A model generated the notes under the pieces. The model was not told the origin of the DNA, searched no databases, and worked only from the letters and a program-made list of their open reading frames with translations. This document shows positions 20,108 to 47,060 of a stretch of DNA of 64,000 nt, in pieces. Positions within the stretch are counted from its first letter, which is position 1; each line of letters opens with the position of its first letter. The position numbers were made by a program, and so were the translations under genes. Source of the DNA: a virus. The stretch covers positions 152,502 to 216,501 of the IMG/VR virus record IMGVR_UViG_3300043219_000566. The stretch is one strand, 5' to 3'.

Positions 20108-20141
20108 AACCCACTCCTTCGACGCTATGGGTTCGACGCTA

Positions 20142-20423
20142 TTAGCGACCGTACATAAGGTGTACGGCGTCACTCTTGCTGGCAGTCATTAGGTAGTAGC
20201 AAACTGAGATAAACCGACCGATCCCCGGTAACTCTGTACTGGCATGCACTGTTGCGGGCTGAAAAACGATATGCTCGGCGCGCTCCATCCACCGCTGCAT
20301 CTGGGGCACAACTGGCTCGGTGAGCATGACGTCGGTCTGCTCGTCGATCAACGACCCCTGCACCGGTTTACGCACTCTGCATTCGTTGAATTCCTGAAGA
20401 CGCAACCTGGGGAAAACAAACAT
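20142..20423 (-). CDS. hypothetical protein upstream of nrdJ, 93 aa
   Basis: Not recognised. ATG follows GGAGCGGAGCAA, a strong start signal. The N-terminus is basic, the middle reads FQPATVHASTELPGIGRF. It ends 34 bases before the preferred nrdJ start, so it probably leads the nrdJ transcript. A possible promoter lies about 90 bases upstream of it. Confidence 0.6.
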   Translation of the reverse strand: MFVFPRLRLQEFNECRVRKPVQGSLIDEQTDVMLTEPVVPQMQRWMERAEHIVFQPATVHASTELPGIGRFISVCYYLMTASKSDAVHLMYGR

Positions 20424-30646: not shown

Positions 30647-30650
30647 ATTG

Positions 30651-31478: not shown

Positions 31479-31674
31479 GCCGCTCCCCCAGTACCAGTAG
31501 CACGATCATCGTAACCAGCGTTGCTACACCGACTACGACCACCAAGATAGCAAGAAAGCTGGGCTCGGGTTTCCCAGCCGCACGAAACCCAGACACCTTG
31601 ATCATCTCCGGCTCAAAGTCGAACTTCGGAGGCTCAGAGACGTTATCACAATCCGGCAATTTCACCGGGGGCAT
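31471..31674 (-). CDS. small membrane protein, 67 aa
   Basis: Start MPPVKLPDCD because GGAGG is four bases upstream of that ATG. Residues about 42-62 (LAILVVVVGVATLVTMIVLL) form one membrane span near the C-terminus, with a proline-rich N-terminal part. Possibly an i-spanin-like or other envelope protein; next to a lipoprotein gene, which is the usual layout of a spanin pair, but no coiled coil is seen. Confidence 0.6.
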   Translation of the reverse strand: MPPVKLPDCDNVSEPPKFDFEPEMIKVSGFRAAGKPEPSFLAILVVVVGVATLVTMIVLLVLGERHG

Positions 31675-31687
31675 GATCACCTCCGCA

Positions 31688-31912
31688 TTAGAACAGCGCG
31701 TTGAACAAAACGTCCATCGCGCTCTCTCCCCCGAACATCTCTGTGTTGTCCTGGAACAGCTGCCAACAGGTCTCGCGCCCAGACGAAGACTCCAAGCACG
31801 CCGACAGATCCATGCCATCGACGTCCTCGGCAAACGGAGCGAACGGCGTCAGCAAGCAGCCGGGAAAAGCCAACAGAACCACGGGTAACAACCAACGCAG
31901 CTTGCGTCTCAT
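31688..31912 (-). CDS. putative small lipoprotein, 74 aa
   Basis: N-terminal signal: basic RRK, hydrophobic LRWLLPVVLLAF, then PGC at residue 19, a fair lipobox. The mature part is short and acidic (EDVDGMDLSACLES). The ATG follows AAAGGTGGAG. It neighbours two small membrane proteins (31471 and 31915); together they could form a lysis or envelope module, which is inferred from layout only. Confidence 0.6.
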   Translation of the reverse strand: MRRKLRWLLPVVLLAFPGCLLTPFAPFAEDVDGMDLSACLESSSGRETCWQLFQDNTEMFGGESAMDVLFNALF

Positions 31913-31914
31913 AG

Positions 31915-32034
31915 CTACTCCACCTTTCTATGCGGCCACCGCCACAGCGCGAGGCCAAGCACCCACGGCGCGAGACGCCCCAGCGGGACGTCCCACGCAA
32001 CCCAAATCAGAAATCGCTGCAACATCCTCCTCAT
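31915..32034 (-). CDS. tiny hydrophobic protein, 39 aa
   Basis: Begins MRRMLQRFLIWVAW, made almost wholly of a hydrophobic segment with Arg ends. Start set by ATGA overlap with the Tad2-like gene and GAGGTC upstream. Likely a small membrane peptide (holin-like or envelope); unproven. Confidence 0.5.
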   Translation of the reverse strand: MRRMLQRFLIWVAWDVPLGRLAPWVLGLALWRWPHRKVE

Positions 32035-32294
32035 GCGCCGACCTCGAACCAGTCCTCGGCCAGCACGTCGGTCTGGCTCGCGAGCCACGGGACCAGATCG
32101 CCCTGCACAGTCGTGATGAAGATGTACGGCAAGCTCATCTTGAAAACAATCTTGCCTTCGCGAGCAATGCGGGTGTCGCTCTCGGGTACTTGAAGCATGA
32201 GATTCTGGTTCGGACCGTTCCATCCCTTCCGTGCCACTCGTTTACCTGCCTTCAGTCGAGCAATTGCCTCTCCAAAACCAAAGTCCGGTTCCAT
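32031..32294 (-). CDS. tad2: Tad2-like anti-Thoeris protein (DUF2829)
   Basis: Matches the DUF2829 family along its length: FGEAIARLKAGKRVARKGWNG at the start and PYIF, VPWLASQTDVLAEDW at the end are the family hallmarks. Tad2 proteins bind and sequester the cyclic ADP-ribose-type signal (gcADPR) of the bacterial Thoeris system and so block its effector. 87 aa is the normal size. Placed among small membrane genes inside the glycan island. The family assignment is strong; sponge activity here is inferred. Confidence 0.85.
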   Translation of the reverse strand: MEPDFGFGEAIARLKAGKRVARKGWNGPNQNLMLQVPESDTRIAREGKIVFKMSLPYIFITTVQGDLVPWLASQTDVLAEDWFEVGA

Positions 32295-32321
32295 CTGTGT
32301 TCTCCTGATAGAAATCCAACC

Positions 32322-33296
32322 TCATACCGCGCCCCCGATTATTCGCAGAATGTGTCTAGCCGCGACCGGAAGCGACAACTCCCGCTCATAGTACTCCCGC
32401 GGGCGGAACGATCTCCAGTCGCCCAGCACTTCGGAGAGAACTTTCACAAACGTGTCCTTGGTGAAGGTACGTCCCGTCTCAGGCGTGATGTATTGGCTGT
32501 GCCAGAGCCGCGTGCCCTCCGAGACAACGATCGGAGTATCGCAGGCCAGAGCCTCGGGAATCACCCGCGGGCAGCTGTCCTTGCCCGCCGTCATCACTAC
32601 GGCGACCTTGGCGCGCGCGTACAGACTCGGCAAGTCAGCACGCCGTACCCAGCCAGTGAAGCTAGTATTGGGAAATTTAGCAGGCCAGCCCCGCCGTCCG
32701 ATTCCCACGTGCAGCAAACGCACCCCGCGCAAATTCGGCAACAGAAAACGATGGCCCTTATTGGCGTTGTGGTTGAAATTGGCCACGTAGATCACGTCGA
32801 ACTCGGGATGAGCAGATATCGGGGAAGCAGGCCGGAAGATATTGTCGGCCGCCGGTTTGACGAACAACTGCGCGTTGTAGCCGTTAGCTTGCGCCCGCTC
32901 CAGCTGCTCGGGTGTGTCTACCAGCACCAGATCCCAGTGCTGCCTCGGCCCGGGGATCACCCGCTGCCCGGCCCCGTAGTGGATCTTGAAGGCCTTCGGG
33001 AACTGCGCAGCCTTGGCCCGATGGATTTTGAAGCCGCCGCGGGTGAACACGACATCCGGGTCAAAGGACACCGGCGTCTGAGCGTAGCGCGCTACCCAGC
33101 GCTCCACGAAGTTCTCGCGGTACTGCGCCCTCCGCTTGCCCTTCTCGTACCACACCTCGCCGTAGCCGCCCGTCTGGTTGACCAGCTCCCAGGCCAGTTG
33201 CGTCCACATGTCGTCGTTCTGCTCCAGCTTGTCGAACATGATCTGACGCGCCGGACGATCGCTAGGCACTTGCCCGCGCAGGAATAACAGTTTCAT
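32322..33296 (-). CDS. GT-B (GT4-like) glycosyltransferase
   Basis: Start MKLLFLRGQVP (GAGGAAACTGC upstream; a longer frame to 33326 lacks support). The C-terminal PEALACDTPIVVSEGTRLW is the GT4 donor-binding E-x7-E-like segment, and FDVIYVANFNHNANKGHRFLLPNL the preceding strand-loop. 324 aa. Cytoplasmic or membrane-surface sugar transfer. An exact palindrome copy (33084-33095) codes Val-Ala-Arg-Tyr inside it. Confidence 0.8.
   Translation of the reverse strand: MKLLFLRGQVPSDRPARQIMFDKLEQNDDMWTQLAWELVNQTGGYGEVWYEKGKRRAQYRENFVERWVARYAQTPVSFDPDVVFTRGGFKIHRAKAAQFPKAFKIHYGAGQRVIPGPRQHWDLVLVDTPEQLERAQANGYNAQLFVKPAADNIFRPASPISAHPEFDVIYVANFNHNANKGHRFLLPNLRGVRLLHVGIGRRGWPAKFPNTSFTGWVRRADLPSLYARAKVAVVMTAGKDSCPRVIPEALACDTPIVVSEGTRLWHSQYITPETGRTFTKDTFVKVLSEVLGDWRSFRPREYYERELSLPVAARHILRIIGGAV
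33084..33095. repeat. GTAGCGCGCTAC palindrome, copy 5 (inside a CDS)
   Basis: Exact copy, in frame as Val-Ala-Arg-Tyr in a glycosyltransferase gene. Confidence 0.85.
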
Positions 33297-33338
33297 GCAG
33301 TTTCCTCGACGAGAACCGATCACCACAGCTCAACGACG

Positions 33339-33677
33339 TTACATCGACTTCTCTTGCTTCCGCTGCAACCGCAAGCGGACAAATTGCATCGACTCCCAAC
33401 ACGCCCGCAACCAGAGTTTCTCTCCCTGGTTCAACACAATTCCGCCGCCGTCCTCGTCGTCCAAACGCAACGGATCAGGTTTCAACGTCAGCTTCTTCTC
33501 CCAACCGCAATCGCCCATTCGCACAACGATTTCGCCGGTCTCCAAATTACCCTCGAAGACCGCCTGTTCGCCGTGTTCGTTTTCGTAGTAACCGTGCTGA
33601 ATTTCCTGTCGGTCACCATCGATCTCGGGCGGTGGGCCACTATCCTTGCACTGGTGATTAGAAACTCTGAACAGCAT
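33339..33677 (-). CDS. hypothetical protein, 112 aa
   Basis: Not recognised. Beta-rich with many acidic residues (YYENEHGEQAVFEGNLETGE) and a basic C-terminal end (RLRLQRKQEKS). ATG after GGGAGATCGGT. Lies between a glycosyltransferase and a sulfotransferase. Confidence 0.65.
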   Translation of the reverse strand: MLFRVSNHQCKDSGPPPEIDGDRQEIQHGYYENEHGEQAVFEGNLETGEIVVRMGDCGWEKKLTLKPDPLRLDDEDGGGIVLNQGEKLWLRACWESMQFVRLRLQRKQEKSM

Positions 33678-33692
33678 ACCGATCTCCCTTTG

Positions 33693-34463
33693 TCAAAACC
33701 ATTCGTCAACGCGCCCGCCCATGATCTCGAACAACTTCCGATTCCACGGTTTGTAAAACTTCCGCAGCTCGGCCCGTAAGCCGGGGTCCATGTCGCAGCC
33801 GTGATCCGTCTTCCAATTGCGAAACGCGCCTGCCACCGGAGCAGGCCGGTCCCGCTCAACGAACTTCATCTCGACTGTCTTGGGGGTGTAGGGATCAACA
33901 CCCAGCCACGCGAACAGCTTATTGGTCTCGACAGTCGTGTTAGCCGCCATGCGCTCCTGCACCAAGAAGTACAGCTGCGCGCGCCAGTCGGAGAAAAATG
34001 GGAATACCGCCCGCTCCAACTGCTGGAAATACTGCCCACGTTTCCGTGGGCTCGACCCAGCCGAGAACCGCTTGAACTTCTTGATCTTCACCGGCTTGAG
34101 ATGGTGCATCCAGAACTCGCTCAACATCCGGTCCACCGGCTCACGCACACAGAGAATCAGCTTCACCCCGGGGATCTGGCTGCTGATCCGGCGCAGAGCC
34201 ATCGGGCTCTCGATGTAGTTGGCGCACTTCTCCCCGGCCAACTGCGTTGCGTTGCTGAAGCAACCCTGATACCAGCCGGTACCCCGGGAGAAAACGTGAT
34301 ACGGCCCATCGTTGTTCCAGAAGCGGATCTCCGTCGAAGTCCGCTTCGGGTCCTCCGCATTCTTGCCCATCGTGATCTGCGGGTGCTCATTCAAATTCCG
34401 CCACAGCGCAGTCGTCCCGCACTTCATGGAACCAACAATGATGAAATCAGGAAACTTGGGCAC
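33693..34463 (-). CDS. PAPS-dependent sulfotransferase
   Basis: Transfers sulfate from PAPS to a sugar or other acceptor. DFIIVGSMKCGTTALWRNL is the 5'-phosphosulfate loop (G11-S-M-K14-C-G-T-T18), and KLILCVREPVDRMLSEFW is the 3'-phosphate motif with its Arg and Ser. 256 aa. I prefer the GTG at 34463, which has GGAGATCC upstream and puts the loop at the usual place. The clearest sulfotransferase of the five in this island. No signal or membrane segment, so it acts on a cytoplasmic substrate. Confidence 0.88.
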   Translation of the reverse strand: MPKFPDFIIVGSMKCGTTALWRNLNEHPQITMGKNAEDPKRTSTEIRFWNNDGPYHVFSRGTGWYQGCFSNATQLAGEKCANYIESPMALRRISSQIPGVKLILCVREPVDRMLSEFWMHHLKPVKIKKFKRFSAGSSPRKRGQYFQQLERAVFPFFSDWRAQLYFLVQERMAANTTVETNKLFAWLGVDPYTPKTVEMKFVERDRPAPVAGAFRNWKTDHGCDMDPGLRAELRKFYKPWNRKLFEIMGGRVDEWF

Positions 34464-34496
34464 GCCGGATCTCCAGAGCACAACGAGTATGGCTTA

Positions 34497-34817
34497 CTAC
34501 GTACCCGACTCGCGCTTTCGCCGGTCCAGTTCAATGCGTAGTCTTTTGCCCGCAGTAAGCATATTCGTAAGCAACGCTTGCAAGCGCGCGTCGTACGCGG
34601 CCGGAGTAGCGCACTCGTGCTCGTACGGAACGGGCACAAAATGGTCAGGTTCAAACCACATGCGGTTGATAAATTTTGAATCCACCGGCAAATTGCCGCT
34701 CTCATCGCGCGCAAAAATACGATTGGCCAATCGATCCACTTCGTCCTTGAACTTGTTGAACGCGAGATCAAACTCTCGCGGATCAGCATCCCCGCCTAGT
34801 CCGCCACTTTTAGCCAT
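34497..34817 (-). CDS. hypothetical protein, 106 aa
   Basis: Not recognised. Helical with charged ends (FNKFKDEVDRLANRIFARDE; GKRLRIELDRRKRES). ATG after GGAGGTGTTCG. Stands between two sulfotransferase-like genes. Confidence 0.65.
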   Translation of the reverse strand: MAKSGGLGGDADPREFDLAFNKFKDEVDRLANRIFARDESGNLPVDSKFINRMWFEPDHFVPVPYEHECATPAAYDARLQALLTNMLTAGKRLRIELDRRKRESGT

Positions 34818-34838
34818 CGAACACCTCCATCATGCGTA

Positions 34839-35672
34839 TCAATGGGCTGCAACGCCCAAATCGACCTCGATTGGTCCGAATACCGCGTCGCTCAGGCGAC
34901 GCACCTCCGCGTCATCCACTACGCGCTGCAGCGGGCGTGCTAGCCCGCGATGCTCCCCGGTGAGCTGCTCCCAGCGCCGCAACACGTTCATGTCCTGGCC
35001 GCGTCCGTCCAGATCCAAGTAGTCGAACGAACTGCCTTGCCCGTGACGAGACACACGCTGCAGCCCAGCGTCGCTGAACGGTACGTCCAGCCATTCGGCC
35101 AACTCACGCCGGTACTCCTCGTCGACGAACCAGCGGTTGTAGTTCACCCGGAGCGCGTCTGGGTAGTGCTCCAGCTCGCCCAGGAACTCGCGCGCGTGCG
35201 CCTTCCACAGCTCCACAGCCCAGTCCAGATGCAGCGGGCTCATCGCTATTCGCAAAGGAAGTTTCTCGGGGGTCTGATTCCACGGAGCCACTGACCACAC
35301 CAGACGGCTAGCAAACGTGTTGTACGGATCTCGCAGCACCAAGATGCAGCGCCGACGACGAGCGCGCCCCAAATGCAGTTGTTCGTAAGCCCCGTAGCGT
35401 GAATTAGCCGCGATCTGCGACGGAATCACGTGAGGAAAGTACTCCTCGAAATTGACGATTGCGGTATTCAGAAATCCGGGACGGCGCGCAGTCTGCCGAT
35501 GCTTCTGCCAAGGACTCAACAGCGACAGGTTGTTGAAGAACTGCGCATCGTCGCCCCACAACCCGAGCATCCAGTTAATCACCGCGTGGTGCCCAGTCCG
35601 GCGCATAGCCACGACGTAGATTATTTCGGCAGTGCGAAGTTCAATCGGATTGACTTCCAGACGGATTCTCAA
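34839..35672 (-). CDS. sulfotransferase-like protein, copy A of a diverged pair, 277 aa
   Basis: IIYVVAMRRTGHHAVINWM (loop at about residues 22-33) and ILVLRDPYNTFASRL have the shape of sulfotransferase 5'- and 3'-phosphate motifs, with R-(S/T)-G-H-H in place of K-S-G-T. Closely related to the next gene (shared RDPYNTFASRL, NYNRWFVD, QGSSFDY). The frame is open to 35759, but a TTG at 35670-35672 with GGAGGCGGAA upstream is the best start. Acceptor unknown. Confidence 0.72.
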   Translation of the reverse strand: MRIRLEVNPIELRTAEIIYVVAMRRTGHHAVINWMLGLWGDDAQFFNNLSLLSPWQKHRQTARRPGFLNTAIVNFEEYFPHVIPSQIAANSRYGAYEQLHLGRARRRRCILVLRDPYNTFASRLVWSVAPWNQTPEKLPLRIAMSPLHLDWAVELWKAHAREFLGELEHYPDALRVNYNRWFVDEEYRRELAEWLDVPFSDAGLQRVSRHGQGSSFDYLDLDGRGQDMNVLRRWEQLTGEHRGLARPLQRVVDDAEVRRLSDAVFGPIEVDLGVAAH

Positions 35673-36393
35673 TTCCGCCTCCGGGGCCGAAGATTCTTTC
35701 TGCCAGGCGGCGCACGTCGACGTCGGATAGCACGGCCTGAAAAGCAGGCTGGTGCTCAACCGTACGCCAGCGACTCAACACGTCCATCGCCTGAGCATTG
35801 CCTTGATGTGCATACGAATCGAACGAGCTGCCGCCACCGGCCCGCGGGATTCGGTGCAAACCATCGTCAGAAAACTCCAGGCCCAGCTCCGCCGACAGCT
35901 CGCGGCGATAAGCCGCATCAACAAACCAGCGGTTGTAGTTGATGCGCAACAACCCCGGAAACGGCGGCGAACCCAAGTAGAAGCGCGCGTAGTCCTTCCA
36001 TTTCCGAATGTACTTGTCCGGACGCTTGCGAGCTTCTTTGCGAAACCACGGATGCGAAAGACGGCTGGCGAACGTGTTGTAAGGATCTCGCACGACCAGC
36101 AAGTAAATCCGCCGCACGATCTCGCCGAGGCACCGGCGCTCACAGCGACGATAGACACTCTGCGACTCCGGCCGCGTCTCCGCAAAACGATCGACCCGCA
36201 CATCCTCGAAGTTGACGGACAACACTCGCGCCGCTGCCTTGGCGCTGGCCTGCCACTTGAACTGCGGCTTAGTCAGCAACTCGTTGTTGAAATGATGCTG
36301 CGGACCCGGCAATTGCGCCATGACCCAGTCGAGCACAGCATGATGGCCGGAACGCCGCATACCGAGCGTGTACACCATCGTGTCGTATGGCAA
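35641..36393 (-). CDS. sulfotransferase-like protein, copy B of a diverged pair, 250 aa
   Basis: MVYTLGMRRSGHHAVLDWV at the N-terminus and YLLVVRDPYNTFASRL in the middle parallel copy A; INYNRWFVDAAYRRELSAEL and GGGSSFDSYAHQGNAQAMDV are shared over most of the length. The pair arose by tandem duplication, and has diverged enough for separate acceptors. TTG start after AGGGG. It overlaps the start of copy A by 32 bases. Confidence 0.72.
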   Translation of the reverse strand: MPYDTMVYTLGMRRSGHHAVLDWVMAQLPGPQHHFNNELLTKPQFKWQASAKAAARVLSVNFEDVRVDRFAETRPESQSVYRRCERRCLGEIVRRIYLLVVRDPYNTFASRLSHPWFRKEARKRPDKYIRKWKDYARFYLGSPPFPGLLRINYNRWFVDAAYRRELSAELGLEFSDDGLHRIPRAGGGSSFDSYAHQGNAQAMDVLSRWRTVEHQPAFQAVLSDVDVRRLAERIFGPGGGIENPSGSQSD

Positions 36394-36417
36394 AACAGGC
36401 CCCTACGTGCCGCGTCA

Positions 36418-37431
36418 TCAAGACAACTCGAACGACCGCTCAAGAGCTTCCAAATCGTCCAGACTGGTCAACGCTGCTCTGGTATTCAACAGATACATGC
36501 GCACCCAGCGCTCCGTTAACGACAGCTCGTGATCAACAAACGCACGTCGGAAGTGCAGGTAGCCGCGCCGAGCCATTTCCACTAGCCCCTCCGGCGCGCT
36601 GAGCAACCGCTCCAGACAAGGCACGATGTTTCTGTCCAGCGTGCAGTAGTGATCCTCCGCGCGAAAATCGGCGATCTGGACCTGTTCTCGCTCGTTGATC
36701 GCATCCAGCAGCAACCCGCTGCCCGCCGCCATCACTTCCCACTCACGACGACAACGAAAACCGGAGCCCGGCGGAGAGTAGCACAACAACGCTCGGCCCA
36801 TTCCCCGCAGGTACCCCCGGGGCCTGAGCGCCGCGTTCGAGATACGAAACCGCAGCCCCAGCCGCTTACAGGCCTCGCGCAGCTCGTTAACCCGGCGATG
36901 CCGGTACCGGCGCTTGGGCTCGGCCGCGTTCATGTTGCCAATGAAAAATACGTCTAGCTCACGCGGTCCATCCTTGGGCACCGGCGGAGGATTAGCGAGC
37001 CAGGCATAATGCACCCGCGGCACTGGAAATTGCGGGAAAACCCACAAATTGTAGGTCTGCTGAGCGACGTCAACCGACGTACCCCCCAACGAGCGCCGCG
37101 ACAAGTTGGCCTTGAGGTACACGTGCCGCTCGCAGCAATGCTCCAACAAATGCGGACGCACGATCGAGCCATCGTAGATATCGGTGAACAGCACGCGAGC
37201 TTCGGTATCGCGCAGCAACCGCGCCCAGTATTCGTCGGGCACCATACGCATCCCGAGCTTACACACGGCAACGTAGCCCGGCCCCCGCGGAAACGTCGCA
37301 TGGACCTCGGGCATGAACCCCCGTACAGCTGCCTCGTCTTTGAAATACAGGAATCCCGGGTGCTTGCCCAAATGAATGACCGGATGCCCGTGGTAATGAT
37401 CGGCTTTGTAGCCGCGATCAACTAAGCGCAT
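36418..37431 (-). CDS. putative GT-B glycosyltransferase
   Basis: DVFFIGNMNAAEPKRRYRHR and the C-terminal SGFRCRREWEVMAAGSGLLL resemble the end of CgeB/spore-protein-like and GT4 glycosyltransferases (GxR..E.masG.l). N-terminal half has no clear motif. Start MRLVDRGYKAD, GGGAG upstream. 337 aa. Probably sugar transfer; the acceptor is unknown. Confidence 0.6.
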   Translation of the reverse strand: MRLVDRGYKADHYHGHPVIHLGKHPGFLYFKDEAAVRGFMPEVHATFPRGPGYVAVCKLGMRMVPDEYWARLLRDTEARVLFTDIYDGSIVRPHLLEHCCERHVYLKANLSRRSLGGTSVDVAQQTYNLWVFPQFPVPRVHYAWLANPPPVPKDGPRELDVFFIGNMNAAEPKRRYRHRRVNELREACKRLGLRFRISNAALRPRGYLRGMGRALLCYSPPGSGFRCRREWEVMAAGSGLLLDAINEREQVQIADFRAEDHYCTLDRNIVPCLERLLSAPEGLVEMARRGYLHFRRAFVDHELSLTERWVRMYLLNTRAALTSLDDLEALERSFELS

Positions 37432-37447
37432 CAGTTGTTCTCCCGGA

Positions 37448-38176
37448 TCAATATCCGTACACGTCCAGCATGCCCCCAGCCTCGCGGCGAATGATACGCC
37501 GGTCATTTGGCGTCAATCGCGCCCGCGACTCAGCGTCGAAATCAGGATGGCGGCCCAATGGGAACGGGCGACCGTACATGTTCTGCCGCCGGACCGGCGC
37601 GGACAGATCGACCGGCACCGACGCGAGCCCCAGCTCCGCAAGAATACGATCCACGCTGGCCTGGGGCTCGGCGACCAGCGCCTCGTACCGCACCACCAAA
37701 TGACGAACCTGAGCAGCATCGTCCCGCATGATCCGATTGGCCTCACGCCACTGCCTAGCACAGCGCGCGATATCGTGCCCGCGCCGACGCCGCAAACCCT
37801 CGGCCACGGCGTAACCGTCGCGAACCAGGCAGATGAAGATTGCCGGAACGAAGACCGCATTCATGAAGCGCAGGCGCAGAGCATTGTGCGGGCTCTTTTC
37901 CAGCAAGACCTCCCGGTTGCGATCCCACTTGCGGTAGAACGCATTTCGCAATCGTGCCACGTCGCGCGTCGCCACGTCCCGCTCGGTCATACAGAACTTC
38001 TTGGGGTACAAGGCGAACAGCCGCTTGGTCTTCGGCCCACGATCGCGCGGCAGTACCCGGCTGTAGTGATGACCCTCCTTGGGTAAAGTCGACACGGCAG
38101 GATGTTGAGCCAGTAATCCGCGAAGCAAACCGCTCCCGGAGTTGGTCGTTCCCGCGATAAAAGCATGCAGCCGCAT
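37448..38176 (-). CDS. sulfotransferase-like protein, 242 aa
   Basis: MRLHAFIAGTTNSGSGLLRG carries a 5'-phosphosulfate-like loop (G9-T-T-N-S-G-S-G16), and IFICLVRDGYAVAEGLRRRRG a 3'-phosphate-like segment. Later VVRYEALVAEPQASVDRILAEL is the usual sulfotransferase R-Y-E-x-L ... helix. I start at ATG 38176, right after the previous gene; the longer frame runs through that gene. C-terminus IRREAGGMLDVYGY is typical of the family (LGY end). Confidence 0.78.
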   Translation of the reverse strand: MRLHAFIAGTTNSGSGLLRGLLAQHPAVSTLPKEGHHYSRVLPRDRGPKTKRLFALYPKKFCMTERDVATRDVARLRNAFYRKWDRNREVLLEKSPHNALRLRFMNAVFVPAIFICLVRDGYAVAEGLRRRRGHDIARCARQWREANRIMRDDAAQVRHLVVRYEALVAEPQASVDRILAELGLASVPVDLSAPVRRQNMYGRPFPLGRHPDFDAESRARLTPNDRRIIRREAGGMLDVYGY

Positions 38177-38178
38177 CG

Positions 38179-38847
38179 TCACACCCACCGTGTGAAACGA
38201 GCTTTTGGCCCCCGCCGGGCAATCTGATGCCGCGCCGCCCACGGCCGCCCGATATCGCGCACCAATACCACGCCCTTGCGCGACGAGTGCATGACCGCGC
38301 AGCGCTCGCGGGAAGCAATACCCCAGGCTTTCCAGCGATACACCTCGTGCAGCTGCGTCTCCGGGTTGAAGCTCTCGTCCAACTTCCCGGCCACCCGGCT
38401 GTAAAACGCGCGACACGTCACGCCCGGAGCCAACGCGATCCGCTGCGACTTGTGCGACTGCGCCCGTCCGACGAAACGAACCTGGTAAATTCCTGGATGA
38501 GCATCGAAAGCACGGTAGACATCGGCCATGCGCGTATCGTTGATCATCTCCCAGTCGTCCTCCAGGTGCAGGATGAACTGGGTATCGGCCTGAGACCAGA
38601 GCCAGTTGATCGCTGCCGTAAAGTTGGGTTTCGCCGAGCAACGCGACACGACCGTGCCAAAGAACCTCCGCGCCACGGCGAGTACGTCGTCGGCCGTGTA
38701 TTTACCTGCCGGAGCTGGATCGACGTTGATATACAGCGTCAGATACTTGAAATCCACATCCTTCAAATGCTTCTGAAATGAAGCGTAGGTACGCCGCAGC
38801 AGGTCCGGCCGCAGCATAGCCGTCGTCGTCACCGAGAGCAGCTTCAT
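38179..38847 (-). CDS. GT-A-like glycosyltransferase
   Basis: KLLSVTTTAMLRPDLLRRTY is a GT2-like first strand-helix; FILHLEDDWEMIND supplies the acidic ExD/DD motif at the donor site. 222 aa, with the start set by ATGA overlap. Related proteins replace DxD by EDD. Likely transfers one sugar in the same pathway as the neighbouring sulfotransferases. Confidence 0.68.
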   Translation of the reverse strand: MKLLSVTTTAMLRPDLLRRTYASFQKHLKDVDFKYLTLYINVDPAPAGKYTADDVLAVARRFFGTVVSRCSAKPNFTAAINWLWSQADTQFILHLEDDWEMINDTRMADVYRAFDAHPGIYQVRFVGRAQSHKSQRIALAPGVTCRAFYSRVAGKLDESFNPETQLHEVYRWKAWGIASRERCAVMHSSRKGVVLVRDIGRPWAARHQIARRGPKARFTRWV

Positions 38848-39572
38848 GCGATTACCCACTCGCTGCCGTAGATCGCTCGGTACTGTTCCCAGACCCCGGC
38901 TCGCAACTGCTCGTCGAACTCGGGCAACAACTGCCCGGGATTGCGCCGGGAGCTATCCCACTTGTTGAATATCTCCCGCGGCGCGGCATCGAGCGTGCGG
39001 GCATTGCTCTGGGCATACTCGTAACGTACGATCCGCCCTCCAGATTCCAGCGCGTCCTGAGCAAACAAGCTCCATTCCCGAATCCAGAAGCTGATACTCG
39101 CTGCCGCATTTACCCCGCCAGTATTAGCGACGAACTCGAAGTGGCGTTTGGGCTTGGTCAAGCTGATGTACTGGTGCACCGGATGCCGAACAATGCAGAT
39201 CAGATCTCGGATCACGTCTCGGTTGCGGGAGAAGAAACCAAACATGGGAGCCCGACTGAACATCGTGACTTTGCGCGGACGACCCTTCATCCAGTGACAG
39301 TAGGCCAGCAAGTTCTGCTCGATGGTTAACCGCTCGTCGCACTGGTAACCAGTACGCCGGTGGAAACCCGCGATTGAAGCCGCAGACGGCCGCGCCGCGT
39401 AACCACGGTGGTCTAACTGCTGATCGAACTTGGTAGCCGACTTTTGTTGCTGCGGAAAGTACCACGGCAACCAATAGGTCTCCGGACGGTAGTGACCGGT
39501 GTAACGTCGCTCAAGCCGTCGTTTCAGCCACGTCGAGCCCGAACCCCCGTAGCAAGCGAAAGCGTACTTCAC
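38844..39572 (-). CDS. sulfotransferase-like protein, 242 aa
   Basis: Starts GTG at 39572 (GTGA overlap, GGGAG upstream). VKYAFACYGGSGSTWLKRRL gives a P-loop like G9-G-S-G-S-T14; VIRDLICIVRHPVHQYISL is the 3'-phosphate motif (R-H-P-x-x-x-Y-I-S). The longer frame to 39668 overlaps the previous gene and lacks an SD. Fourth to fifth sulfotransferase-type gene of the island. Confidence 0.75.
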   Translation of the reverse strand: MKYAFACYGGSGSTWLKRRLERRYTGHYRPETYWLPWYFPQQQKSATKFDQQLDHRGYAARPSAASIAGFHRRTGYQCDERLTIEQNLLAYCHWMKGRPRKVTMFSRAPMFGFFSRNRDVIRDLICIVRHPVHQYISLTKPKRHFEFVANTGGVNAAASISFWIREWSLFAQDALESGGRIVRYEYAQSNARTLDAAPREIFNKWDSSRRNPGQLLPEFDEQLRAGVWEQYRAIYGSEWVIA

Positions 39573-40303
39573 AGCATCTCCCTTCCGAAGCGCCGACGCA
39601 ATTGTCGCGCAAACCGCGGCAGCAGCAGCGCGTACGGAAACGGGCGCGGTGACGACGGAATCTTCCACCGCGCAAGATACCAGGCCAAGATAAACTCGGG
39701 TACGCCGCAGCGATACTTGCGAATCGCACCCAGAATCTCGTCACTCAGCAGCTCGGAGTACAACGCAGCATAAACCCGCATCTGCGCGGGACGCCCTGCC
39801 AGAAACGTGTCGTTGATAGCGTAGCCCGCGCTCGGCAAGCCCTTCACCTTGAAGTTCGAGTAGCACAGCTCCGTGCGAGTCCACGCCAGCAACTTATCCC
39901 AGTCGAGACAGAACGTCGGGTACCAGTCGAAACGGCAACGCAGAATGATGTCGTACTCGTCGAGGTTCCCGATCAACTCGAAAGCACTTTGAATCGTCAA
40001 ATACTGGGCAAATAGCCCGGTCTTGATGCTGAAGCGCTTGCGTTGAAACGGCAGTTGTTCGACCTGTGCGGCTTTGGCCGTGACCTCAGCCGCGACCGCG
40101 TCCCAGGAATGAAGCACCAGCTTACGTGGGCTGTACGTATCCGCAAGCGCCGCCCGGCCCTGCTCACAGCTGTAACCCTCGTCAAACGTGTCCCAGGCAT
40201 AGACATACGTATCGACCTCCTGATCACCGAGCATCTTCCGCCAGGCCGGGGCCGTCTTGGCGAACGTCCGCGGCATACCGCCGAACACCACAGCTACTTT
40301 CAT
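39569..40303 (-). CDS. putative glycosyltransferase, WavE-like, 244 aa
   Basis: MKVAVVFGGMPRTFAKTAPA at the start, VDTYVYAWDTFDEGYSCEQG, and YDIILRCRFDWYPTFCLDWD resemble WavE/DUF-type LPS biosynthesis proteins (R-x-D-x-Y/W acceptor). ATG at 40303, GGAG upstream, ATGA overlap with the gene before it. Substrate unknown; lies in the sulfotransferase-glycosyltransferase run. Confidence 0.6.
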   Translation of the reverse strand: MKVAVVFGGMPRTFAKTAPAWRKMLGDQEVDTYVYAWDTFDEGYSCEQGRAALADTYSPRKLVLHSWDAVAAEVTAKAAQVEQLPFQRKRFSIKTGLFAQYLTIQSAFELIGNLDEYDIILRCRFDWYPTFCLDWDKLLAWTRTELCYSNFKVKGLPSAGYAINDTFLAGRPAQMRVYAALYSELLSDEILGAIRKYRCGVPEFILAWYLARWKIPSSPRPFPYALLLPRFARQLRRRFGREML

Positions 40304-40749
40304 GACGTCGCTCCAATGTAACGAGCTGGGTAATCCGAGCAAATCGCGTAGCAGCCCCGCAGCTCATCCGGCGTGTAATTGGCCTGCTCGGGCAATACCG
40401 CGATGCTGCGCTGGGTCAACTGCGCACCGGTCCGCGTCCACACAAGCCCGCACGAAGTCAACGCTACCGCATCCTGGTCGTGAAAGAACACGTGTGCGTA
40501 ATTGAGCAGACGGCAAAGCGCTTCGACATTCTTGGCATGAACCCAAATGTCAGGCTGAGCCAGCCAAAATAGCTCAATGGGCTCCGACGGGCCGTCATGC
40601 CCTAGCCACAGCTCACCCTCATGCCACCAAACGTCGACCTCGACCTGAAAGCCCGCCGCACGCGCAGATTCCAGATACTCAAGCCGATTCTCGCGATTTA
40701 CCACCCGTCCAGCTACATTTCCGCGATGGCTGATGGGTCTTTGATCCAT
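40300..40749 (-). CDS. glycerophosphodiester phosphodiesterase-like protein, 149 aa
   Basis: RPISHRGNVAGRVVNRENRL matches the GDPD start (H-R-G), followed by GFQVEVDVWWHEGELWLGHD with the E-x-D and H-D metal and acid-base residues. WVHAKNVEAL and ICSDYPARY follow. Only 149 aa, about half the usual TIM barrel, so it is a short phage form. Family members of this length occur with glycan genes. Overlaps the methyltransferase gene by 37 bases. Confidence 0.68.
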   Translation of the reverse strand: MDQRPISHRGNVAGRVVNRENRLEYLESARAAGFQVEVDVWWHEGELWLGHDGPSEPIELFWLAQPDIWVHAKNVEALCRLLNYAHVFFHDQDAVALTSCGLVWTRTGAQLTQRSIAVLPEQANYTPDELRGCYAICSDYPARYIGATS

Positions 40750-41336
40750 TTCCGTACCACCGTAATGCCCCAGTCATCGTCGCGCTCCTTGAAGAACTGG
40801 TTCACGTCGAACAGCTCGCGATCGATAGCCGGGAGCAATGCAACCGGACCGGGATGAAAATTCGTGTCATGCAGCACAATAACGCCGAACGGCGAGACAA
40901 ACTCGGCGTAGCGCCAATCGCGCACTACCTGATCGACCGAGTGCCAACCGTCGATGTGTAAGAAGTCGATCACCCGCTCACCGCATAGCTCCTCGACCTT
41001 GGCCATCACGCGCTCTAGGTCCGAGGAGTCGCAGCGCAACGTATGCACGTTGGCGCGCTCGATGTAGCACTTGTCCTGCGTGTCCACGCCCAGGTAAAGC
41101 ACGTCGGCGGGCAATTCCACCAGCAGCACCTGCGTACCGGATGCACCGTCCCCGTGATTGGATACGCCAATTTCCAAAACCAAACGCCTCTGTCCCGCTA
41201 GCGAACGAAATGCTTCGCGCAACACGCTCTGATCGCGCGTAGAGTACACTCTGGAAATGCGCTTCTTAGCCGCAGCAAAATTGGGCGGACGATCCTTGTC
41301 ACCGTTGCTCGGAACATAGGTTAATCCGTAACTCAT
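40713..41336 (-). CDS. class I SAM-dependent methyltransferase (Methyltransf_24 type)
   Basis: RLVLEIGVSNHGDGASGTQ is the SAM-binding loop (E-x-G), LYLGVDTQDKC the second strand acidic residue, IDFLHIDGWHSVDQVVRDW and VIVLHDTNFHPGP the typical (D/I)G-x-H-x-x-x-V-x-x-D and HD motifs of Methyltransf_24, often seen in glycan or antibiotic pathways. 207 aa. ATG after GGGGAG. Overlaps the RuBisCO-like gene stop. Confidence 0.75.
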   Translation of the reverse strand: MSYGLTYVPSNGDKDRPPNFAAAKKRISRVYSTRDQSVLREAFRSLAGQRRLVLEIGVSNHGDGASGTQVLLVELPADVLYLGVDTQDKCYIERANVHTLRCDSSDLERVMAKVEELCGERVIDFLHIDGWHSVDQVVRDWRYAEFVSPFGVIVLHDTNFHPGPVALLPAIDRELFDVNQFFKERDDDWGITVVRKWIKDPSAIAEM

Positions 41337-42529
41337 TCAGTTACTCCCCATAGTCGAATAGCCTGACGGTACTCAGCTCCGTGCTCACCGTCGATCGCCT
41401 GGCGCATCGCCCGCGCGCCTGCCAAGGTTCCGCCGGGATGACCGTGAATACTGCCGCCACAATTCGCCAGCCAGTCGTTACCGAAGCGCTTGACAATCGC
41501 TTGCACCAGCCCCGGGTGCAACCCGCAGCTGAGCGCAGGCAGCACGTCGGCTTGCCGCAGGACGGCCAGCGTCGCGCTCAGCTCATCCTCCGGATCAGAC
41601 AGATACCCGCCCCACATCCCGGCATGAATGAAGTCGACGCCCATCAGGCCCGCCAGCTTGCAAATCACGTTCCAAGAGATGTACGCGCGGTCGGTCGGCG
41701 TGGTCATGATGCGATCGCCGCTTTTCTGAAAGAACAACGCCAACGGCAGATCCAGGCGGCGCACGGCCCGATAGGCTCCCAAGCCACTCCAGATATTGAG
41801 ATGCACAGCATTGCCGCCCAGCTCGTGCACCAACGCTACGCGATCCAGCAGTTCCGGTCCGTCGGCGGTCACACAGACCGCGTAGATCACGTGCTTGTCG
41901 TGCAAGTAGTCCATGATCAGCGGCACCCGCTCCTTCAGCGAGCAGCACGCCGGGTTCGACATGATCTCGTCTTCCTTGATGAAATTGACCCCGCCCGCGA
42001 CCAGCTCCTTGACCACAGCTAGTAACGTGGACGGGCTAATACCCACCTTGGGCTTGATAATCCCACCCAGCAGCGGTTTATCGTGGCAACGGGTAGCCTG
42101 ACGGATGCCGCCGAGCCCGTAGCGCGGCGGCAAGAAGCCCGCGCAAGCTGACTTCGGGATCTCCAGCCCGAGCAATCCGCAGCCCTCGATGAGATCGATG
42201 TCGAGCTGACCACCCATCAACTGACACAGCAATTGAGATATGCCGTCGTTCGGCAAATCGATATTAGCCAGTGGAAACGCGATCTTCACTTCGCCCTTCC
42301 GGCGGCGCGCCAGATCGTCCGGGTCGTGCGGGATCAGACAACCGTGCTTGCGGAACAGCTCGGGGCTCTCCCACGCGCTGCGCATATTCGGGTTGCCAAT
42401 ACTCTGGCCCACCGCCAATGCCCAAGCTGCCTCCTTCAGCGTAGTACGCGAGCGCAAGTTGTAACGCGCAACGATGTACTCCTCGGGGTCGTACTGGCTC
42501 GTGAAAACAATCGACTCAACTGACGACAT
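41333..42529 (-). CDS. RuBisCO-like protein (form IV type), 398 aa
   Basis: RuBisCO large-subunit fold. LLGGIIKPKVGIS holds both Lys of the KPK motif (K159, K161); GGVNFIKEDEIMSNPACC matches GGLDFTKDDENVNSQPF, giving the carbamylated Lys (K185) and metal residues Asp187/Glu188; LANCGGSIHGHPGG ends with the GG phosphate motif. But loop 6, IHAGMWGGYLSD, lacks the Lys of true RuBisCO (GKLEGE), and His294/Arg295 are not found at FFQKSGDR. It therefore should not fix CO2; RLPs act as enolases/isomerases or decarboxylases on sugar-type substrates. 398 aa is slightly short. Neighbours are cupin, methyltransferase, nucleotidyltransferase and sugar kinase, which suggest a role in making an unusual sugar. 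ATG after GGGAGACAAGC. Confidence 0.9.
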   Translation of the reverse strand: MSSVESIVFTSQYDPEEYIVARYNLRSRTTLKEAAWALAVGQSIGNPNMRSAWESPELFRKHGCLIPHDPDDLARRRKGEVKIAFPLANIDLPNDGISQLLCQLMGGQLDIDLIEGCGLLGLEIPKSACAGFLPPRYGLGGIRQATRCHDKPLLGGIIKPKVGISPSTLLAVVKELVAGGVNFIKEDEIMSNPACCSLKERVPLIMDYLHDKHVIYAVCVTADGPELLDRVALVHELGGNAVHLNIWSGLGAYRAVRRLDLPLALFFQKSGDRIMTTPTDRAYISWNVICKLAGLMGVDFIHAGMWGGYLSDPEDELSATLAVLRQADVLPALSCGLHPGLVQAIVKRFGNDWLANCGGSIHGHPGGTLAGARAMRQAIDGEHGAEYRQAIRLWGVTE

Positions 42530-42839
42530 GCTTGTCTCCCGGCCGCGAAGGGATCTTGACCACGATCAGCTCGCAGTCCTCGTGGAAGACGGGGTCCGCT
42601 AGCTCAAAGGGATGCAGGACAAATACGTCACCGGCCTGCAACTCGCGGTCTTGGATACGCATTCTTCCACGGATGAGGTAGTTGACCTCTACGGATTTCT
42701 TGTGATAGTGCCTCGGCCACTCCTCGCCTTGCCGATGCCGCAGATACCCGACCTCGCAGTCGGCAGTCTGAAAGGCCGCAGGCTCGAAGTTGCCTACGAA
42801 CCAGCCGCCTTCCATCGTCTTGATGTGGCGAATGTCCAT
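42516..42839 (-). CDS. cupin protein, 107 aa
   Basis: Single small beta-barrel: YLRHRQGEEWPRHYHKKSVEVNYL (G-x5-H-x-H-x-x-x-x-E) is cupin motif 1 and LQAGDVFVLHPFELADPVFHED motif 2 (G-D-x-x-x-x-P-x2-x-H). Such domains often isomerise or epimerise sugars or bind metal-bound acids. It overlaps the RuBisCO-like gene by 14 bases and lies two bases after the nucleotidyltransferase, so they probably form one pathway. The SD is weak. Confidence 0.78.
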   Translation of the reverse strand: MDIRHIKTMEGGWFVGNFEPAAFQTADCEVGYLRHRQGEEWPRHYHKKSVEVNYLIRGRMRIQDRELQAGDVFVLHPFELADPVFHEDCELIVVKIPSRPGDKHVVS

Positions 42840-42840
42840 G

Positions 42841-43566
42841 CTACTCGTGGGGCAAGTCTCCCCGCCTCAACTTCTCCAGGAACAACTCCAAGTCCTCGGG
42901 AATCCCAATCGCGTGATGAACCTCCGCCGGAATGCGGTAGACCACCACCTTTGAGCCTGCCTTGATCATGGCGTTGTACGTCGGGCACACGTACGGCTCG
43001 CCATCGTGAGCGCGTTCACCGGTCTGAGCAGCTCGAATGAAGTCCCGCCCGTGACGCCACCAGTGAATGCCGTTGCTGGCGATATCGCTGATGACCCGCT
43101 TCTCGACGATAAGGTCGACGACGTCGTTGTCGTCGACGCGCACGAAGCAGTCCGTCGCCCGACTGCACGGATAGCAAACCACGATGCCGTCTGCGCTAGT
43201 GTGCTCGATGAAAGTCAGAAAGCGCTGCGGGTTCCACGTCATGTACTGATCGCAGTTGGCGATCACCAGCTCGTCGTCGTTGTTGATCAACGCCACAGCC
43301 TGTATGCACGTGTCTGCCGGTCCAGCGGTATCGTCGACAATCACGATCTCCGCCTCGGGATAGTGCTCCAGCACGACCGCATCGATCCCGTAGCGCCTCA
43401 CATGCTCACGATGCAGACAGAAAATCAACCGACCCGGCAGATCCAACGTATCGACCGCCCGCTTGAACATCGGCTCCCCCGCCACGTCGATAAGAGGTTT
43501 GATCGTGTCGATGTTGCCGAACCGCGCTCCACGGCCTGCCATAGGGATAAGAACGTTCCTGCTCAT
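42841..43566 (-). CDS. sugar-phosphate nucleotidyltransferase (NTP_transferase)
   Basis: NVLIPMAGRGARFGNIDTIKPLIDVAGEP is the G-x-G-x-R-x-x-P/K signature (here cut short) with Lys at the usual place; VIANCDQYMTW is the acidic metal motif. Adds a nucleotide to a sugar-1-phosphate to give an NDP-sugar. Which nucleotide and sugar cannot be told; a heptose such as GDP-heptose is possible given the context. 241 aa. ATG after GGAGAGCTG. Confidence 0.82.
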   Translation of the reverse strand: MSRNVLIPMAGRGARFGNIDTIKPLIDVAGEPMFKRAVDTLDLPGRLIFCLHREHVRRYGIDAVVLEHYPEAEIVIVDDTAGPADTCIQAVALINNDDELVIANCDQYMTWNPQRFLTFIEHTSADGIVVCYPCSRATDCFVRVDDNDVVDLIVEKRVISDIASNGIHWWRHGRDFIRAAQTGERAHDGEPYVCPTYNAMIKAGSKVVVYRIPAEVHHAIGIPEDLELFLEKLRRGDLPHE

Positions 43567-44477
43567 CAGCTCTCCAATCGTGTAACGAATTCGCGCATCC
43601 GTTCAGCCCGCGTACCGAACTTCGCGTGCAGCAACTCCACCATATTGGTATTGAGACGCTGCCGCAAACTCTCATCTCGCAACAACCGCGAAACGTAACG
43701 AGCCGCAGTATCGATGTCGCGCGCCGGGTAAACCAACGCAGTCTGCTCGTGGATAGCGTAGTCCTGCATCCCGCTGCGCGGGTGATCGGTACAGACCAGC
43801 GCGCAGCCCGCCAGCGCCGCCTCGATCGGTGGATTGTGCAGGCCCTCCAGCTCGGTGGGCGCAAACCAGACCTTCAGTCCGTTGTACCAGTTGTTCAGCC
43901 GCTCCGGAGTCGGACGCTTGATATGGCGATTGAGCTGCTGGATCGGCTGATCAAGCTGACGTTCGAGAAAGTCGATGTCGCCGTTGCGCTTGGTCGCATG
44001 GCGATTGTTGCGCAGAGCCCCCGCCCCGGCCCGCACGCGCGGAACCAGGTGAAACCAGTGCGGGTCCAGCCCCGGGTACTGCAGCATCACCGAGATCCCG
44101 TACTCTCGCATGTAGGCGTAGAGCCACTGGGAGTTCACGAAGACGCGATCGACCGCCCGAAACGAGCGCAGTAACGTCGCCTCGGTGGCTTTCCACAGCT
44201 CCAGGCCGCGCACGTAGTAGGTCTGCAACCGAGCGGAAGTGTAGCGCGCTACAGATCTGACGCTGTTGATCCCGGTCGCGATGGTCACGTCGCAGGGCGG
44301 ATGCGTCTCGCCCCCGATGCACTCGATCTTCGCCGGATGCCAAGTGTAACGGCTACGTCCACAATGAAAGAAGGCCTTGTGCCCTAGCTCGCGCAGCGTC
44401 TCCACGCAACGCACCAGCGTACGGGAGCCGCCGTTGTTAGCTAGCCCCACGCCGCGCATGTTAAAGCAAATTCTCAT
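43566..44477 (-). CDS. GT4-like glycosyltransferase
   Basis: GT-B fold: N-terminal RICFNMRGVGLANNGGSRTL, and KVWFAPTELEGLHNPPIEAALAGC plus VYPARDIDTAARYVSRLL, the GT4 E-x7-E donor site. 303 aa. An exact palindrome copy (44241-44252) codes Val-Ala-Arg-Tyr inside it. It shares a base with the nucleotidyltransferase start, so the two are likely translated together. Confidence 0.83.
   Translation of the reverse strand: MRICFNMRGVGLANNGGSRTLVRCVETLRELGHKAFFHCGRSRYTWHPAKIECIGGETHPPCDVTIATGINSVRSVARYTSARLQTYYVRGLELWKATEATLLRSFRAVDRVFVNSQWLYAYMREYGISVMLQYPGLDPHWFHLVPRVRAGAGALRNNRHATKRNGDIDFLERQLDQPIQQLNRHIKRPTPERLNNWYNGLKVWFAPTELEGLHNPPIEAALAGCALVCTDHPRSGMQDYAIHEQTALVYPARDIDTAARYVSRLLRDESLRQRLNTNMVELLHAKFGTRAERMREFVTRLES
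44241..44252. repeat. GTAGCGCGCTAC palindrome, copy 6 (inside a CDS)
   Basis: Exact copy, in frame as Val-Ala-Arg-Tyr in the GT4-like gene. Confidence 0.85.
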
Positions 44478-45615: not shown

Positions 45616-46029
45616 TCAATCGAAACCGGTGAATACCTCATTGGAGAATTTGTCTGCTTCGGAAGCCTCGGGCTGCAAAAGGCCCTGCTTCTCTTTGGCC
45701 CGCTCCCAACGCTGCATAACCGTTGCAACGAACTCGCTCATAACGGCCCGGCGCAATCGGTCGATCAGCTCGCGAAAGCGTGCGTTGTCAGTAGAGCGCA
45801 GATTCGCAAACCCGCGCGTAGCGGTAGAGACTCCGATAACCATGCCTTTGTGCTGAATGGGGTTGCTAGTCTGTACGATGTGATCGTACAGCGCATGACC
45901 GATGATCTTGGATTGCTCCGACGGGCCAAACTTACCTTTCAGCGGCACGCCCCGCCCTTGAAAATCGATACCATCGATCACCCGGTCGCGCTCGCGCTCG
46001 GCTAACTGCACTAGCTGCGCAAAAGTCAC
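45616..46029 (-). CDS. hypothetical helical protein, 137 aa
   Basis: Not recognised. GTG start (GTGA overlap with the kinase stop; GGAGAACGGGCT upstream). Helical, with a loop KGKFGPSEQSKIIGHALYDH. Coupled to the HldE-like kinase. Confidence 0.62.
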   Translation of the reverse strand: MTFAQLVQLAERERDRVIDGIDFQGRGVPLKGKFGPSEQSKIIGHALYDHIVQTSNPIQHKGMVIGVSTATRGFANLRSTDNARFRELIDRLRRAVMSEFVATVMQRWERAKEKQGLLQPEASEADKFSNEVFTGFD

Positions 46030-47060
46030 AGCCCGTTCTCCTTGATGTGCCGATCCAGCGCTGCCAGCAACTGTTCGCGGCTGACCGCGTTCGTATCGTG
46101 GTGCTGCACCGCCTCGGCAGCAGCAACATTGGCGAGCAACGCCGCGTCCGGAGACGATAACCCGCAGGCACAAGCCCAGGCGTAGGTCGCCAGCACGGTA
46201 TCACCCGCGCCGGTGACATTGTACACCTCGCGCGCAAACCGCGGCAGGCAGAGCTGCTCAGCTAGATCATCGTAGACCAGCGTCATGCCGTCCCGCCCAC
46301 GAGTGATAAGCAGCTCATCGATACCCAGAGTCTTAGCAAACTCCCGCGGAGCAACAACCTTACCGGCGTCGTCCAGCTGCCCGCCCATGCGCTCGAACTC
46401 GCGCAAATTGGGCTTCAGCGTAGTGTGGCTGCCGACGTTGGCGCGGTACATGGGTAGCGATTCAGGCTTGCACTCCAGGTAGCAGCGCGCGCGGGACGCG
46501 CGGATGGGCTCCAGCACGTCTTCGGCTATCGTGCCCTTGTCGTAATCAGCCACCACGATGCCGCAGACCATGGAATTGGACAGCGCTGTACGCAGCTCCT
46601 GACACAGGCGATTACGACTTCTCTTGTCGCCGCGGCAGTCTGCGGCAAGAGTAACCGACTCGTCGACCCGCAGCAGCTGCTGCTGATGCTCGGCGATGTA
46701 CCGCGTCTTCCGCTCGGTTCGCAAAGCCGGGAAAGTTACTAGCTGAGCACTGCAGCAGCCAGAAAAGTACGCGGTCAGAAAAGCCCCGTCTTCGTCGCTA
46801 CCCACCCGGCCAACGAGAGCGACCAACGCACCTAACTTCATCAAGTTGTGGGCAACGTTAGCCGCCCCGCCAGGGCACAGGCGAGTACAAGACTGTTGTA
46901 AAACAGGCACCGGGGCTTCGGGCGAGATACGCTTCACCTCGCCGTAAACGTAGCAATCGACCATCACGTCGCCGATAACGACGAAGCGCGGAGCCACGCT
47001 AGAAACCTGACGCAAGTTCTTCGCCGCCGAAACGAGGAATCGTTTGGTGTCGTCGTTCAT
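46026..47060 (-). CDS. PfkB-family sugar kinase, HldE/RfaE N-terminal type
   Basis: 344 aa with the whole pattern of heptose-7-phosphate 1-kinase: FVVIGDVMVDCYVYGEVKRI SP, CPGGAANVAHNLMKLGA (substrate loop), and EVYNVTGAGDTVLATYA, where Asp287 of GAGD is the catalytic base. It lacks the second (nucleotidyltransferase) domain of bacterial HldE; a separate nucleotidyltransferase is coded at 42841. It likely phosphorylates a sugar phosphate to feed the glycan pathway. The substrate is inferred from family and context. Confidence 0.83.
   Translation of the reverse strand: MNDDTKRFLVSAAKNLRQVSSVAPRFVVIGDVMVDCYVYGEVKRISPEAPVPVLQQSCTRLCPGGAANVAHNLMKLGALVALVGRVGSDEDGAFLTAYFSGCCSAQLVTFPALRTERKTRYIAEHQQQLLRVDESVTLAADCRGDKRSRNRLCQELRTALSNSMVCGIVVADYDKGTIAEDVLEPIRASRARCYLECKPESLPMYRANVGSHTTLKPNLREFERMGGQLDDAGKVVAPREFAKTLGIDELLITRGRDGMTLVYDDLAEQLCLPRFAREVYNVTGAGDTVLATYAWACACGLSSPDAALLANVAAAEAVQHHDTNAVSREQLLAALDRHIKENGL

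Follow-up and report, generated by a model that had tools for sequence, protein, structure and literature searches.

The window described here is a stretch of 64,000 nucleotides (positions 152,502 to 216,501 of the IMG/VR virus record IMGVR_UViG_3300043219_000566, a contig of 216.5 kb) and encodes, within a glycan gene island, a RuBisCO-like protein (RLP) of 398 amino acids. This protein belongs to a large, mostly viral clade, the members of which are predicted to be non-carboxylating, enolising sugar-phosphate isomerases or epimerases that feed a nucleotide-activated sugar pathway, probably via a pentulose 5-phosphate (probability roughly 0.55). That the RLP performs the sugar-phosphate step of such a pathway appears quite likely from the sequences compared; pentulose 5-phosphate as its exact substrate class is the best single guess, and a tentative one. 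Rather than take part in carbon fixation, the RLP would probably supply an uncommon component of cell-surface sugars.

The RLP matched the Pfam family RuBisCO_large at 121.8 bits (E 4.5e-35). Its AlphaFold model, which was built from 55 relatives and had a pLDDT of 94.8 and a pTM of 0.92, contains the complete RuBisCO fold (N-terminal domain and TIM barrel), with TM-scores of 0.80-0.89 to RuBisCO and RLP structures overall. The closest solved fold was that of form III RuBisCO (Foldseek TM 0.86-0.89, 25% identity), and the RLP structures 2oem, 3nwr and 1tel gave TM-scores of 0.82-0.87. The KPK, KEDE and NCGG motifs were located at residues 159-161, 185-188 and 356-359, in agreement with a first-pass annotation of this DNA that had described a near full-length protein of RuBisCO fold with KPK, KxDE and GG motifs. 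In close viral pairs of RLPs synonymous changes greatly exceeded non-synonymous ones (dN/dS 0.03-0.06). This confirms that the RLP is a real gene and not a chance open reading frame (ORF).

The position of the RLP in the family was determined by maximum likelihood from 81 sequences, among which RuBisCO-family matches from Pseudomonadota and DPANN genomes served only as references. Phage and cellular members grouped together in a single clade (SH-aLRT 99) that excludes forms I, II and III, the OiaX group and MtnW. The fold and the residues make the protein of the window a form IV RLP, and it lies outside the named subfamilies that were compared. The first-pass annotation had also taken it for a form IV RLP and not a carboxylase, which the clade and the active-site residues bear out; a placement with true carboxylating RuBisCO was not seen in the tree.

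Relatives were present on 219 viral contigs when IMG/VR was scanned with a single-protein query and on 348 IMG/VR contigs when a 24-sequence alignment was used. A one-off acquisition by the phage of the window was rejected on these numbers. In 84,980 cellular genomes 22 loci were found (the scans that gave 348 and 22 used slightly different search patterns), including SAR11 single cells, three Legionella species, Azospirillum oleiclasticum and several metagenome-assembled genomes (MAGs). Among sampled sets the RLP occurred in 2/247 SAR11-order genomes and in 1/93 Legionellaceae, and these matches were genomes that had been used as centres or were already known. No relative was detected in 50,697 GenBank phages, the BFVD viral structure library contained no RuBisCO fold (best TM 0.42), and the closest plasmid relatives were OiaX-type and other RLPs of at most 36% identity. 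The T4-type major capsid protein Gp23 shared a contig with the RLP in 13 of the virus records searched, which numbered 27 with the source record, and terminase did likewise on many of them; a portal-like ORF was found in none of eight related phages. One of the cellular loci, L103, comes from a Sphingobacteriales MAG; its contig (JAAXIF010000028.1) has Gp23 and terminase in addition to the RLP cassette. Because of this Gp23 and terminase, L103 is a phage that was binned into a bacterial genome. That the relatives would stand on bacterial islands and not in phages was therefore rejected.

The active site was surveyed in 103 clade members from phages, SAR11, Legionella, Azospirillum and DPANN archaea, and its positions are given in spinach RuBisCO numbering. 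Published structures confirm that the mapped positions form the RuBisCO active site (PMC5786004; PMC9570433). In the window three of them are:

41966..41977, minus strand: Lys185-Glu-Asp187-Glu188, equivalent to RuBisCO Lys201/Asp203/Glu204, the carbamate/Mg centre; kept, and invariant in 103/103 members.
41726..41728, minus strand: Gln268, which replaces the catalytic His294; invariant in 103/103 members.
41603..41605, minus strand: Tyr309, which replaces Lys334 of loop 6; the same in 102/102 members with a residue there.

With Lys269 at the Arg295 position next to Gln268, the loop 6 lysine and the His294/Arg295 pair are missing, as the first-pass annotation had it. The clade retains Lys175, Lys177, Lys201, Asp203, Glu204, Ser379, Gly381 and, with one exception, Gly403, and it carries the substitutions Glu60Gly, Thr65Asn, Trp66Pro, Asn123Gly, His294Gln and Lys334Tyr. 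The main positions were constant in 102-103 of the 103 members. Position 295 was Lys in 85 and Ser in 17 members, position 327 was His in 78 and Gln in 24, and Gly404 was mostly replaced by Ala (86/103). The constancy of the active-site state, together with the dN/dS of 0.03-0.06, argues that the clade is a working enzyme with changed chemistry; from its residues it cannot be expected to carboxylate.

We take the C1-phosphate site of RuBisCO to consist of Thr65, Trp66, Lys334, Gly381, Gly403 and Gly404, and the C5-phosphate site of Arg295, His327 and Ser379. In the clade Thr65, Trp66, Lys334 and Gly404 of the former are replaced, and the latter is largely kept (Lys or Ser for Arg295, His or Gln at His327, and Ser379). 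The pattern in MtnW is the opposite, with Arg295 changed to Pro, His327 to Leu and Trp66 kept. The substrate of MtnW is a 1-phosphate, which fits the same logic of phosphate sites. Because of the replaced C1-phosphate site and the largely kept C5-phosphate site, the likeliest substrate of the RLP would be a pentulose 5-phosphate, e.g. ribulose 5-phosphate. The carbamate on the Lys201-type residue, Asp203, Glu204 and Mg would bind the ketose end of the phosphorylated sugar, abstraction of a proton would yield the enediolate, and Lys175 or Lys177 would give the proton back. As Lys334, Asn123, Glu60 and His294 are gone, the enediolate would be re-protonated, resulting in isomerisation or epimerisation, and not carboxylated.

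The genes linked to the RLP were counted in the 61 loci that remained after dereplication at 90% identity of the RLP. The conserved unit consists of a nucleotidyltransferase (NT), a cupin, the RLP and a GDPD-like protein, which are encoded in the window as follows:

42841..43566, minus strand: NT, sugar-phosphate activating, conserved cassette member (Pfam NTP_transf_3, 1e-7).
42516..42839, minus strand: small cupin of 107 aa, conserved cassette member (weak Pfam Cupin_7 match, 4e-4).
41333..42529, minus strand: the RLP, 398 aa, centre of the cassette (Pfam RuBisCO_large, AlphaFold, tree).
40300..40749, minus strand: mini GDPD-like barrel of 149 aa, conserved cassette member (HRGN, EVD and GHD motifs; fold).

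The NT was the tightest partner. It lay within 10 kb of the RLP in 57/61 loci and adjacent to it (within 450 bp) in 49, being upstream in 39 and downstream in 10, and the linkage reaches Legionella and Azospirillum. Its occurrence on either side implies that the link between RLP and NT outlives rearrangement. The cupin was present in 40/61 loci. The GDPD-like gene, which the first-pass annotation did not mention, was present in 51/61. A methyltransferase was found in 20/61 loci. For the GT4 gene of the window no homologue was detected at any other locus; PfkB homologues occurred in 5/82 loci (the window and four others) and are not a conserved partner. This indicates that neither of the two defines the pathway. 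The sugar-pathway operon of the first-pass annotation therefore stands as a glycan island in which the NT accompanies the RLP, and not with GT4 and PfkB as parts of the conserved unit.

The NT scored 32.7 bits with NTP_transf_3, above the 27-bit Pfam cut-off, and its nearest solved structure was 4evw (1.8e-30). The catalytic motifs HRG, E-x-D and GHD are present in the GDPD-like protein, which matched the glycerophosphodiesterase 7e0v in the PDB (3e-4). Its AlphaFold model (pLDDT 96) gave as best fold match the GDPD 3mz2 (probability 0.90, E 0.02, TM 0.49); no Pfam match was obtained, and its 149 aa compare with about 250 aa for a full-size GDPD barrel. In three Legionella species a LicD-family gene (1e-42) is divergent from the RLP-NT pair (L099, 8636-9487; L100, 8940-9779; L102, 8761-9612). 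Enzymes of the LicD family, like the related fukutins, use CDP-carriers as donors of phospho-groups, and the position of LicD beside RLP-NT speaks for the nucleotide-activated sugar pathway. These Legionella loci sit between apparent housekeeping genes and have the look of a small mobile surface-modification island. In a SAR11 group (L087-L091 and L093) the RLP stands between two NT-like genes, of which the upstream one has diverged strongly, had no Pfam match where this was checked (L093), and may have lost or changed its activity.

The same NT family was found in cultured cyanophages without an RLP. In Synechococcus phage S-SKS1 the NT is fused to DHBP synthase (L202, 8007-9434; PF00926, 5e-65) and in phage Bellamy to RpiB (L205, 2163-3320; PF02502, 4e-32); both fusions have apparently gone unremarked so far. 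S-SKS1 shares with the cassette the NT family, and Bellamy the NT, cupin and GDPD-like families, the cupin gene being immediately downstream of NT-RpiB and the GDPD-like gene 4.6 kb downstream. In place of an RLP, these two phages have a pentose-5-phosphate enzyme fused to the NT: the substrate of DHBP synthase is D-ribulose 5-phosphate, and RpiB belongs to the ribose-5-phosphate isomerase family. The fusion partner of the NT in S-CAM9 and B23 is a HAD phosphatase, and a GDPD-like gene lies nearby. In a tree of NTs the DHBP-synthase-fused and RpiB-fused proteins nested within the RLP-linked ones (support 98 and 95), and the HAD-fused ones were likewise among these. In one RLP locus (L081) DHBP synthase is encoded as a free protein, and its gene and a transaldolase-like one lie 1.4-3.3 kb from the RLP. 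The swap by two ribulose/ribose 5-phosphate enzymes and the tie to the NT give a short list of candidate substrates, and a pentulose 5-phosphate is the best guess in view of these partners and the pattern of residues. From the RLP product the adjacent NT would make an NDP-linked (perhaps CDP-linked) sugar or polyol for transferases to put on a surface glycan, and the cupin and the GDPD-like enzyme may be auxiliary modifiers. The first-pass annotation had likewise proposed that an RLP-made sugar is activated and then added to a glycan; the first part agrees with the NT linkage, and for the second we infer that transferases encoded nearby would perform it.

Several points weigh against this reading. 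The phosphate-site argument comes from mapped sequence positions and from what is generally known of RuBisCO crystal structures, and the residues vary at positions 295 (Lys/Ser) and 327 (His/Gln). Among the cyanophages there is one fusion with DHBP synthase and one with RpiB, a small number; LicD was not found in the phage loci examined, and the nearest sister of the clade has low support (58). Finally, NT relatives occur with a HAD phosphatase as fusion partner (S-CAM9, B23) and have a likeness to nucleotidyltransferases of heptose pathways. This resemblance and the HAD fusions leave room for a heptose route, in which the RLP would reshape a heptose or heptulose phosphate from HldE/GmhA-type enzymes and the NT would produce NDP-heptose. 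Such a route is unlikely. The NT profile does match the heptose-pathway proteins 6jq8/5xhw at 7e-9, the window and four other loci have an HldE-like kinase, and some loci have HldE-type cytidylyltransferase or small HAD genes, but most loci are without heptose genes, as the PfkB count illustrates, and the DHBP synthase and RpiB fusions indicate pentose phosphates.

It is rather improbable that the RLP acts on a nucleotide-linked sugar, or on the NT product directly, instead of upstream of the NT. The order of the reactions is not fixed by that of the genes, and the pocket has been remodelled at its C1-phosphate end, both of which would allow it; however, RuBisCO-fold enzymes that act on small molecules generally use mono- or bisphosphates, and the swap partners work on free sugar phosphates.

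A repetition of a known RLP reaction, that of MtnW (DK-MTP-1-P enolase) or OiaX (3-oxo-isoapionate-4-phosphate decarboxylase), has very little in its favour. The partial NCBIfam matches to both were far under the cut-offs (140.7 bits against 409 and 111.4 against 513.6 for two MtnW models; 138.9 against 700 for OiaX NF042437), and the RLP was below every equivalog cut-off, RuBisCO III included. Like MtnW/YkrW, the clade has the RuBisCO fold without the carboxylation residues and keeps the carbamate/Mg residues, and by analogy enolisation would be expected. Unlike MtnW/YkrW, it forms a separate clade that keeps Lys177, has Pro at Trp66 and Tyr at Lys334, and occurs in a glycan and not a methionine-salvage context. 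OiaX and the RLPs linked to four-carbon kinases (apionate/tetronate-type catabolism) act on sugar-acid phosphates and are about 31-33% identical to the RLP of the window, but they keep His294, Arg295 and Lys334 and sit in catabolic operons on plasmids.

CO2 fixation during infection by an auxiliary phage RuBisCO, the label given to viral 'rbcL' in surveys of auxiliary metabolic genes (AMGs; PMC12607003) and a reading that the RuBisCO_large match might suggest, was rejected on the active-site residues and the tree and has next to no probability, since Lys334, Asn123, His294, Glu60 and Thr65 are replaced in every member that has a residue at the position, the RLP lies outside all carboxylating clades, and its neighbours are glycan genes with no phosphoribulokinase-like gene seen among them. 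Archaeal form III RuBisCO, unlike this clade, has all carboxylation residues and belongs to the AMP/pentose bisphosphate pathway.

The other genes around the cassette are:

40713..41336, minus strand: methyltransferase-like, frequent but not core, overlapping the RLP stop by ATGA (weak Methyltransf_24 match).
43566..44477, minus strand: GT4-like glycosyltransferase that opens the overlapping run; local (Pfam Glycos_transf_1, 7.5e-9).
46026..47060, minus strand: PfkB kinase, an occasional companion, most similar to HldE heptose-7-phosphate kinase (TIGR02198, 1.7e-71, below the cut-off).
29738..40342, minus strand: surrounding glycan island with GT9, GT2-like and GT4-like transferases and sulfotransferases.

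The genes run in the order GT4, NT, cupin, RLP, methyltransferase, GDPD-like, all on the minus strand. Their identities as given by the first-pass annotation (cupin, methyltransferase, nucleotidyltransferase, GT4-like) were supported by Pfam, with weak matches for cupin and methyltransferase. It had them all joined by overlaps, which is true of most junctions (GT4/NT by TGATG, cupin/RLP by 14 nt, RLP/methyltransferase by ATGA, and methyltransferase/GDPD-like by 37 nt); NT and cupin nearly touch, with a 1-nt gap. The PfkB kinase that it placed 3 kb upstream is real; its distance is 3.5 kb to the RLP and 1.5 kb to the GT4 gene, and it lacks conservation as seen above. Two sulfotransferases of the island have Pfam support (33693-34481 and 37448-38641, minus strand); their neighbours at 34839-36393 and 38844-39668 (minus strand) are sulfotransferase-like by eye and had no Pfam match. 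The presence of sulfotransferase genes suggests that the island of this phage produces sulfated glycans.

The source record encodes a phage-type DNA polymerase, RNAP beta, UvsX-like and SbcC-like proteins, RNR and a resolvase. These genes support its being a phage record, as the first-pass annotation had held. A search of the record with T4-type Gp23 and Terminase_6N gave no match. The product of 61389-63155 (minus strand) matched the PHROG 'terminase large subunit' and looks closer to a HerA/VirB4-type ATPase. The RNR large subunit (16715-20173, minus strand) contains an in-frame segment of about 250 aa (residues ~355-606) with HNH-endonuclease matches, which begins with CVTGDTQI and ends with SCN before C. 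This segment is probably an intein.

RLPs are a model for new chemistry arising on a fold, and few of their reactions are known. No description of the cassette or of its function, including that of an RLP with capsule genes, was found in the literature. The 2007 GOS ocean survey reported novel groups of RuBisCO homologues outside all known forms (PMC1821046); compared by description only, these resemble the clade in being ocean RuBisCO homologues with altered active-site residues, and they were without host or function assignment. Viral rbcL has been listed as an AMG for CO2 fixation, where the one that was tested clustered with 'RbcL-like' proteins (PMC12607003), and 'Rubisco large domain' AMGs have been noted in viruses of hydrothermal mats (PMC10159854). 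Such reports merit a re-check, as hits in this clade are not expected to fix CO2. In its widest form the proposal is a speculative one: a virus-dominated clade with new chemistry, that of a pentulose 5-phosphate isomerase/epimerase on a carbamate/Mg centre, would lead to an undescribed NDP-pentulose or NDP-pentitol for the surface glycans of phage-infected cells, SAR11 and some Legionella, and viral 'rbcL' would largely be the enzyme of this clade. A module that builds surface sugars would be consistent with the known interest of phages in the surface glycans of their hosts.

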